From assembly GCA_021432635.1 (NCBI GenBank), contig MU270022.1, positions 186,001 to 250,000 of the forward strand: a stretch of DNA of 64,000 nucleotides, read 5' to 3'. The notes beneath the pieces were generated by a model, which saw nothing but the letters and a program-made list of their open reading frames with translations, had not been told where the DNA came from and ran no database searches. This DNA comes from Thozetella sp. PMI_491. Taxonomy: Eukaryota; Ascomycota; Sordariomycetes; Chaetosphaeriales; Chaetosphaeriaceae. Below, piece after piece: positions 24,116 through 26,837 of the stretch; within the stretch, counting starts at the first letter, position 1; the number at the start of each line of letters is the position of its first letter. Both the position numbers and the translations under genes were made by a program.

Positions 24116-26837
24116 TCAGCGCGTTGCAAACCTACTCTTTGAGCGAAGTTTCTTGCCGTATCGGAAGAACAGATACGGGAATGGTAGCATGATCACCGTC
24201 AAGAAAGCCAGTAGCGCGGTAGCCCATTGGTAACCCAGCCTCTCGTACATTTGAATGCCGAACAACGGGAAGACAGCTATACGAAGACGCCGCTAGGATT
24301 AGCATCATCACGATAGATAAGAATGGGCACGTCAAGGGTGATTTCAGCCGAAGGGAGACGGCATTAGTAATACCGGGATGCTGGCATACCTGCAAAAGTG
24401 CAACGCACGAACGCGTTTCCCGCCAGCGCACTCGCAGCGTATAGTGGGTACGCGTCGACCTGTAACGTAGAACATAATCAGCATTAGCCCGGTAGCAAGC
24501 TCGCACCACTGTTCCAATAGCCATGTCTGAGCCTCACGGACCCAGGCGAGATGTTGCGCCAGGAGATCCCAAGACCAGGCTTCAAGGTGGCACGACCTGA
24601 GATAACTCACAAGAAACTGCCGGAATAGTCAGTTTTTAATCTCAAGCTTTATTGGGTGGTTTGCGGGAAGGGAACAGCTCGTACCGTAAATATGCCAGTA
24701 AATGCCAGCAGAGTACTGCAGCATGATTAGTATTTCCGGAACATGGGGACGCAAGACAATAAAGAGAGTCGGCCGTATCGGGCGTCCGCATCTCATGACA
24801 AAGCCATGAATAACATGCCGTGACCCCATGTTTTGGCTACCACAACGCATCATGTCCAGCATCAGGTAGATGCCTGTTGCTGTCGCCCACTCATGGCAGG
24901 TGCATAAGGCATGCATGCCGTGGCCGAGAGCAGAGCTCCAAGGAGGTCCACACTCATAAAGTCACTGGAAGGAACGAACTTACCCGAGACCAAATACAAA
25001 TGATCCAATGATAGGGACTATCCAGTGGATTGACGGGTATGTCGTGAATCCGAACCCTACGCAACCTCGCGTCAGCGCTGGACAAATCAAGAGCTGTTGA
25101 GGATCGAGGCCCCCCTAGAGAACACAGGGACAAGAAAGAGCAAGGTGTACTCACAAAACAGACCGATGCTGATCAGCGGGGCGCCAAAGATGACAGAGGG
25201 GAGCTGGTCCTCGGGCTCTCCCTTCGACTCCCCAGTCTCCTCGCCGCGTTTCTCAGCAAGGCGATCGCGGACCCGATGCCATATCGGTGTACTGAGAGCG
25301 GCCGAAATCATCGCGATGAGCAGGCCCATGAAACTCAGACCGACTTGCCACAGGTTGAAGCCGTGGTTGTTGGTAAAGACAAGGGGAAAGGCACCGAAGA
25401 ACAAATACAAGATGCCAAGCAGAATGGCGGAATACAGATCCAGGATCAAGGCCATGGGCTCGAAGGCCAGGATCTGGAAGGGCCGGATGACAGCGTATTT
25501 AAGCGTCACTAGGAATGATTTTTGCGATTTCTCAATGGGTGCCTTCCACCGCTCATCTCCGGTCTCCTTCCGCAGTTTCTGGGCCTTCTGCTTCAACAGC
25601 ACGGGGTCTAGTGACGTTAGCGCCCAATCCTAGCTTTTACACCGTGGGTAACAACAACATAAACCTCTCGCCCCAAGATATGGACGAGGGGTGCGAGCAG
25701 GCAGTCAATTGGGCAACATACGGTAAGTCTCTGGGACAAGCAGGGCGAGCATCAGCCAGAGGCAGAAGCTCCAGATGATGAGCATGTAGTGCGTCCACCG
25801 CCAATTGGTATAGCTGTTGATCAAGCCGCCAAATAGCGGGCCGGTTGAGGGACCGACGAAAGGGGCGAGCGTGAAGATGGCCATTGGGGCCTGCATGTCC
25901 TTACGCGTAAACATGTCGCCGACCGTGCCGCCGGAGACGGAGAGGAAGGCACTACCGGCAAGGCCCTGGAAGAATCGCGCGATGATCATGGTCTGGATGT
26001 TCTGGGCCACCGCCGACGGAATGATCCAGACGAGATAGGCGCCAAAAGCACACAGGTAAATGGGCCGCCGGCCATAGAACTCGGCCAGTGGGCTCCAGGT
26101 GAAGCCCCAGGCGATGCCCAGCACGAAGGTCGACAAACCCAGCGTAGCCACCAGCCGCGAATTGCCGAACTCGGCATCCATCTGCGCGTAGGTGGCCGTG
26201 TAGATGGCCGATGCATTGGTCCTGTTATGGGGGGTTTCCCACGGTGAGCAAAGCTGGAACGGAGCGGGCGGGCGGGCCGAGCCCGGGTAAAAGGTCTTAG
26301 ATCTTGCAGGACCGGCCCGTCCGTGGCACTGAGACGACCGGCGATCCTCTGGGAGGTCGTGCAATGGGAAAACACGCACGGCCCACCCATGAAGAATGAG
26401 AGGGGTTGAGGTATATGGTATAGAAATAGGACTTACACGCAGAACGAGCCAAACGAGGTGATGCTAATGATCAGCCATTTCCTCCACAGAGGCATGCTGC
26501 GAGGGCACATCGGGTCTGCATCCCCATTCTCCCATGCCACCTCAAACGGGTCTTTCTCCTCCGGGGGTGACGGTGTGGCGTCCGGTGCTCCGGCTTCCGC
26601 ATCTTGGCTCAAATCATCCACACCATAGCCGTTATTCGACCGCTCCCGGGTCAGTGAAGCATTCCTGCTTCCGGGCCGGGAGCCTCGTGCGGCGCGGCTC
26701 CGAATCGGCTCGAAGGCGACTGCTTCTTCGGCGTCCTCGTCCTCGTGGACACTGTCGTCTGTCTTCTTTTCCGTGAAAGATGGTGAGTCTTGAGATTCCT
26801 TGGCGACTTGCCCCACCTCTACTTTTTGTTCCGGCAT
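24116..26837 (-). CDS. MFS transporter, DHA1 drug/polyamine antiporter type, 564 aa, 8 exons
   Basis: Exons on minus: 26837-26437, 26221-25722, 25607-25155, 25056-24984, 24715-24685, 24616-24611, 24459-24390, 24276-24116; every junction is GT...AG and phases add up. The first 133 residues form a charged, Ser-rich cytosolic tail ending PLWRKWLIISITSFGSFCV, the first membrane helix. Motif A-like EFYGRRPIYL, the WRW of FGGLINSYTNWRWTHY, the family loop LLVPETYHPVL and the final FFRYGKKLR all match the fungal TPO/QDR-like DHA1 group. Helices 10-12 are split among five small exons, one of only 6 nt (Phe-Leu) that restores the family segment FTFLVDAYPLYAAS. Likely a plasma membrane proton-coupled exporter; the substrate cannot be inferred. 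Confidence 0.88.

Follow-up and report, generated by a model that had tools for sequence, protein, structure and literature searches.

Within the window (the whole 64,000-nucleotide stretch of DNA analysed), a gene for an MFS (DHA1-like) transporter contains a coding exon of six nucleotides, TTTCTT, at positions 24616–24611 on the minus strand. Taking its features jointly, we consider it highly likely that this is a constitutive exon, that it was born by the gain of an intron (intron 5) beside an older one, and that it is spliced in two steps under intron definition. Comparison with paralogues in the same genome shows the coding role of the six bases, and it also points to their constant inclusion and to the gain of the upstream intron.

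Structure of the gene around the six-base exon

The TTTCTT hexanucleotide, as read from the DNA of the window, lies between two GT-AG introns. Following the minus strand, intron 4 (24716–24983; 268 nt, phase 2, GTAAGT...CTGCAG) has the same position as an intron in each of the paralogues C7 and C12, and is followed by a 31-nt exon (24685–24715), which codes for the end of a glycine codon plus TLLAFTGIFT and ends ...GGCATATTTACG. Intron 5 (24617–24684; 68 nt, phase 0) has a GTACGA donor of only moderate quality, a branch-like CTGAC motif, and ends CGGCAG; it is followed by the microexon itself (24611–24616), coding for Phe-Leu, and then by intron 6 (24460–24610; 151 nt, phase 0, GTGAGT...CTAAT/CTGAT...TTACAG), whose position is shared with C7. 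The next exon (24390–24459), starting GTCGACGCG at 24459, codes for VDAYPLYAASALAGNAFVRCTFA plus one base of the following codon, and is separated by intron 7 (24277–24389; 113 nt, phase 1, and also at the same position in C7) from the last coding exon (24116–24276), which has the stop codon at its end. The letters directly 5′ of TTTCTT are ...CTGACTATTCCGGCAG and those directly 3′ are GTGAGT, such that the six bases have an acceptor on one side and a donor on the other, with a branch-like motif in each of the two introns, as expected of a spliceosomal coding microexon (15 nt or less). The flanking exons are 225 nt apart, accounted for by the 68-nt intron, the six bases and the 151-nt intron, and the coordinates and letters that an earlier note had given for this arrangement are exact. 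A larger exon around TTTCTT was rejected: the open frame containing it starts at 24628, leaving an in-frame exon that ends at 24611 at most 12 extra bases upstream. As a separate observation, intron 4 exceeds in length nearly all of the introns drawn for the paralogues (36 of the 37 are 188 nt or shorter), and its counterparts at the common position are 92 nt in C7 and 76 nt in C12.

Inclusion of the exon yields GIFTFLVDAYP, with the predicted junction ...ATATTTACG-TTTCTT-GTCGACG, and skipping yields GIFTVDAYP, with the predicted junction ...ATATTTACG-GTCGACG. The frame is kept in both, as had been proposed, with the skipped form two residues short, and this neutrality arises because introns 5 and 6 are both in phase 0. 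Retention of intron 5 introduces an in-frame stop, and retention of intron 6 shifts the frame.

Judged from its sequence, the product is an MFS transporter. A 315-residue part of it scores 72.4 bits against Pfam MFS_1 (cut-off 33.4) when Phe-Leu is present, and the score falls to 65.8 bits when the two residues are removed from the same part. All 25 of the NCBIfam matches listed are below their cut-offs (TIGR00710, for example, scores 100.1 against a cut-off of 200.9 bits), and the best-scoring named models among them are drug-efflux MFS groups, each sub-cut-off, so that no named subfamily such as Bcr/CflA reaches its curated threshold; DHA1-like is therefore a description of likeness and not a subfamily filing. 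Solved structures alike in sequence include Multidrug resistance protein D (2gfp) and QDR2 (32pz), with E-values of about 2e-9 and in the N-terminal half only (for QDR2, 2.4e-9 across residues 3–167). At the site of the microexon, with flanks of equal length, the match to QDR2 does not tell the two forms apart, with an E-value of 0.37 with Phe-Leu and 0.95 without. A 19-residue hydropathy profile places the site in a hydrophobic segment in both forms, and this segment is somewhat less hydrophobic without Phe-Leu; the two residues would form its end, right before a V-D-A-Y-P stretch that is much like that of the relatives.

Phe-Leu in the paralogues

The comparison set consists of paralogues within one genome (72.3 Mb in 157 contigs), in which a C-terminal query gave at least 78 matches, three of them to the window gene's own exons; a scan of viral contigs found no relatives outside this genome. 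We took 79 loci and dropped ten that were the window's own or had been fetched twice, leaving 69 paralogue loci. The paralogue proteins were used as queries against the window DNA with a purpose-written spliced aligner that is blind to the microexon. It uses BLOSUM62, GT-AG introns and simple scores for splice sites and branch motifs, and its splice-signal weights follow a general fungal consensus and are untrained. These query proteins had themselves been derived from the paralogue DNA under the guidance of either the inclusion form or a composite. This tilts towards inclusion the 21 paralogues that have introns at residues 20–60; the 48 without introns there are free of this tilt.

Exactly the introns 24684–24617 and 24610–24460 are picked by 64 of the 69 paralogue queries (the five others being L042, L047, L058, L070 and L076), and the microexon is picked by 47 of the 48 uninterrupted paralogues, in which no intron is drawn at residues 20–60. 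The inclusion form has the higher score in 67 of the 69 paralogues and ties with skipping in two, with no reversals; among the 48 uninterrupted ones it is higher in 47, with one tie. Among the 54 paralogues scoring 160 or more, the column of the first residue holds Y or F in 52, and that of the second holds L, I, M or V in 51. TTTCTT codes for the in-frame residues that its homologues lead one to expect, and FTFLVDAYP, which the earlier note had put forward as the form typical of the family, is borne out. Three further family loci on C15, C31 and C46 fall below the floor of 160 (scores 48.1, 42.6 and 86.0, respectively) and are not counted; the difference between inclusion and skipping is 7 for C31 and 9 for C46, both favouring the microexon, and −2 for C15, which does not.

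The choice of the microexon was followed across scoring schemes using 52 reliable queries, defined by a score of at least 160 and with L042 and L070 left out, their own models being wrong. It is picked by 51 of the 52 at intron costs of 6, 9 and 12, by 49 at a cost of 15 and by 41 at a cost of 18, and by 38 with splice-signal scoring switched off. These queries bear directly on the reading in which a single 225-nt intron spans 24684–24460, TTTCTT included, and the protein is two residues shorter. The outer sites of such an intron make a valid GT-AG pair with the frame open, and a single intron is preferred by two of the 52 queries at cost 15, by five at cost 18, and by one without splice signals; against this stand the 67 paralogues with a higher score for Phe-Leu and the lack of any with a lower one. 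Secondly, a single intron would leave the inner acceptor, the CTGAC motif and the GTGAGT donor as products of chance. We shuffled the 225-nt stretch 1500 times with dinucleotides kept, moving 172 interior bases and holding the outer sites fixed, and in none of the 1500 shuffles was the gain over a single intron matched jointly for all four test queries; singly, the observed gain was matched in 15 shuffles for L009, one for L011, 32 for L013 and none for L054. On this short stretch 16 of 18 queries draw both introns, and the other two (L013 and L017) find intron 6 alone there, with the 31-nt exon outside the alignment, and draw both introns on a longer region. Thirdly, C7 has an exon of 37 nt, equal to 31 plus 6, and altogether we regard the single intron as improbable.

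Inclusion of TTTCTT is very probably constant, because nearly all of the relatives compared from the same genome keep both residues. The earlier note had also suggested that skipping and inclusion could act as a switch for transporter activity, and this idea finds no support in the splice sites or in the relatives. A regulated microexon, with both forms occurring, would have a precedent in the glucose-dependent 20-nt microexon described for Trichoderma virens Xlr2 (PMC11121469), and the frame is kept on skipping; however, frame-keeping simply follows from having two phase-0 introns, both residues are almost never missing in relatives, and C7 and C12 carry them in exons that bar their separate skipping. 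Regulation of this kind is thus very improbable, and we give equally little credence to a version in which the gained intron made a two-codon exon that is skipped at least at a low level, giving an isoform with the helix end two residues shorter. If true, such skipping would be a frame-neutral microexon switch made by one intron insertion.

Some short exons drawn elsewhere in the paralogue set were rejected. A 10-nt exon drawn in L042 is spurious, as that gene reads in one frame up to a frame break, and alignments with low scores (158, 94 and 101, respectively) account for the short exons in L056, L074 and L077. The frame break in L042 (contig C50, minus strand, about 960–920) lies inside an otherwise continuous exon of an MFS paralogue.

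Origin of intron 5

The nearest paralogue, C7, is identical to the window protein at 238 of 426 residues (55.9%), and has introns that match introns 4 (phase 2), 6 (phase 0) and 7 (phase 1) in both position and phase; intron 5 is absent. Comparison with C7 shows that its single 37-nt exon, ending ...TTCACGTTCCAC before the next intron, corresponds exactly to the 31-nt exon and the six bases of the window gene. The second-nearest paralogue, C12 (219 of 422 residues identical), has GVFAFLVAEYP within one exon, and has intron 4 and is without introns 5, 6 and 7. A 12-row tree groups the window gene, C7 and C12 in a single clade with support of 100/99, and gives no inner order among the three.

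The history that we consider most likely is a single event, in which intron 5, 68 nt long, was gained at a point lying six bases upstream of the older intron 6 and so would have split a 37-nt exon into 31 and 6 nt. It is the simplest, because the 37-nt exon of C7 equals 31 plus 6, intron 6 is in register, and intron 5 is absent there. The microexon would be the same if intron 5 were instead old and had been lost in C7 and C12, an unlikely though not far-fetched origin, given that the tree leaves their branching order with the window gene undefined and that C12 is also without introns 6 and 7, such that losses may occur in the clade. Loss requires a gain and one or two losses, however, compared to one event for gain, and there is no accepted case of an intron at the exact intron-5 position among the 69 other paralogue loci. 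The only call there, in L070, was misplaced by the aligner's GT-only rule, and the locus's own DNA puts the intron one residue off; on the minus strand of L070 between 1200 and 1000, what looks like a GC-AG intron (GCACGT...AGCAG) separates the aromatic residue from the one that follows.

A gain of intron 5 would have parallels, as gains of introns near the sites of existing ones are described in fungi (PMC4457414). The parallel gains described there resemble that proposed here in being insertions into a 15-bp interval where other species have introns; they are, however, introner-like elements, whereas no second genome copy of window intron 5 was found. An 80-base query containing intron 5 gave only the self match in the 72.3 Mb genome, in a search that skips very common words and from which weak copies may escape, and the same type of search gave only the self match for intron 6. 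Intron 5 is therefore not a recent introner as judged by copy search, and we rejected an introner-like element as its source for want of near-identical copies.

Two further observations concern this part of the family. Query residues 29–36 are a hot spot for introns, with phase-0 introns drawn at residue 29 in six paralogues, at 30 in two, at 32 and 33 in one each, and at 36 in two, one of which is C7; the misplaced L070 call falls at residue 34. The donor GTACGA is used both by window intron 5 and by the C7 counterpart of intron 6, six coding bases apart; GTACGT is the donor in five of the 37 introns of the paralogue set, and the coincidence is probably due to chance, although it may reflect a history of duplication.

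Order of splicing and other microexons

Intron definition requires a donor, a branch-like motif and an acceptor for each intron, and introns 5 and 6, both short, each supply all three. It is unlikely that two full spliceosomes could occupy sites six bases apart at once, and the two introns are therefore probably removed in turn. Under intron definition, removal of the first short intron would join the six bases to a neighbouring exon, and the second intron would then be removed with the six bases already part of an exon of ordinary kind. Use of a 5′ splice site six bases past an exon junction, giving a 6-nt microexon, is described for the part-spliced transcript of a human reporter, and in the unspliced reporter the exon junction complex repressed that 5′ splice site (PMC6224609). 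Such repression, if valid in this fungus, would count against intron 5 being removed first.

Sequential removal is also a property of stwintrons, nested introns removed one after the other with no exon remaining, which are on record in filamentous fungi (PMC8469720), and the two adjacent introns here probably need it. At this locus, however, the inner acceptor and donor are set apart by the six bases, which break no splice element and code for the expected residues; a stwintron is extremely improbable, and a true exon with two-step splicing is the reading that we retain.

The description of the exon in the earlier note as near the lower limit for size is fair, although it is not exceptional, as six-base exons are already known in fungi: a length of 6 bp is reported for the shortest exon among the P450 genes of Phanerochaete chrysosporium (PMC1184071), and PMC3689799 and PMC4986451 cite microexons of codon size in Tuber melanosporum. 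The Phanerochaete genes are similar in having coding exons down to 6 bp (two amino acids) and frequent small introns, and differ in being basidiomycete genes whose microexons were proposed as candidates for alternative splicing (PMC1184071); for the window gene, comparison indicates constitutive inclusion, and a paralogue shows how the exon would have arisen through an extra intron. The Tuber NACHT-ANK microexons are also few-base exons in a fungus, although, as cited in PMC3689799 and PMC4986451, they are numerous alternatively spliced units of a single gene family, whereas the window gene has just one unit, at a conserved site. The microexon of T. virens Xlr2 likewise belongs to a filamentous fungus and was missed by gene prediction, but its length of 20 nt is not divisible by three, and it depends on glucose and was seen by RNA-seq (PMC11121469); that of the window gene is 6 nt, frame-neutral, and predicted from DNA. 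Plant microexons are similarly tiny coding exons that annotation has missed (PMC8831610), and unlike these the window microexon is in one gene and absent from the 69 paralogue loci compared. Among the matches listed, the titles and abstract openings of papers on fungal microexons contain no MFS microexon of a like kind. A 6-nt exon mentioned for Rhodosporidium DAO1 was set aside, as it apparently means the first six bases of exon 2.

For annotation, the gene carries a warning in that automatic gene models may omit Phe-Leu from the transporter protein. Since C7 has 37 nt where the window gene has 31 plus 6, and the older introns beside them line up, the gene would be a clean natural case of the birth of a tiny exon, and it offers a simple site for testing how efficient the two-step intron-definition splicing of six-base fungal exons may be.
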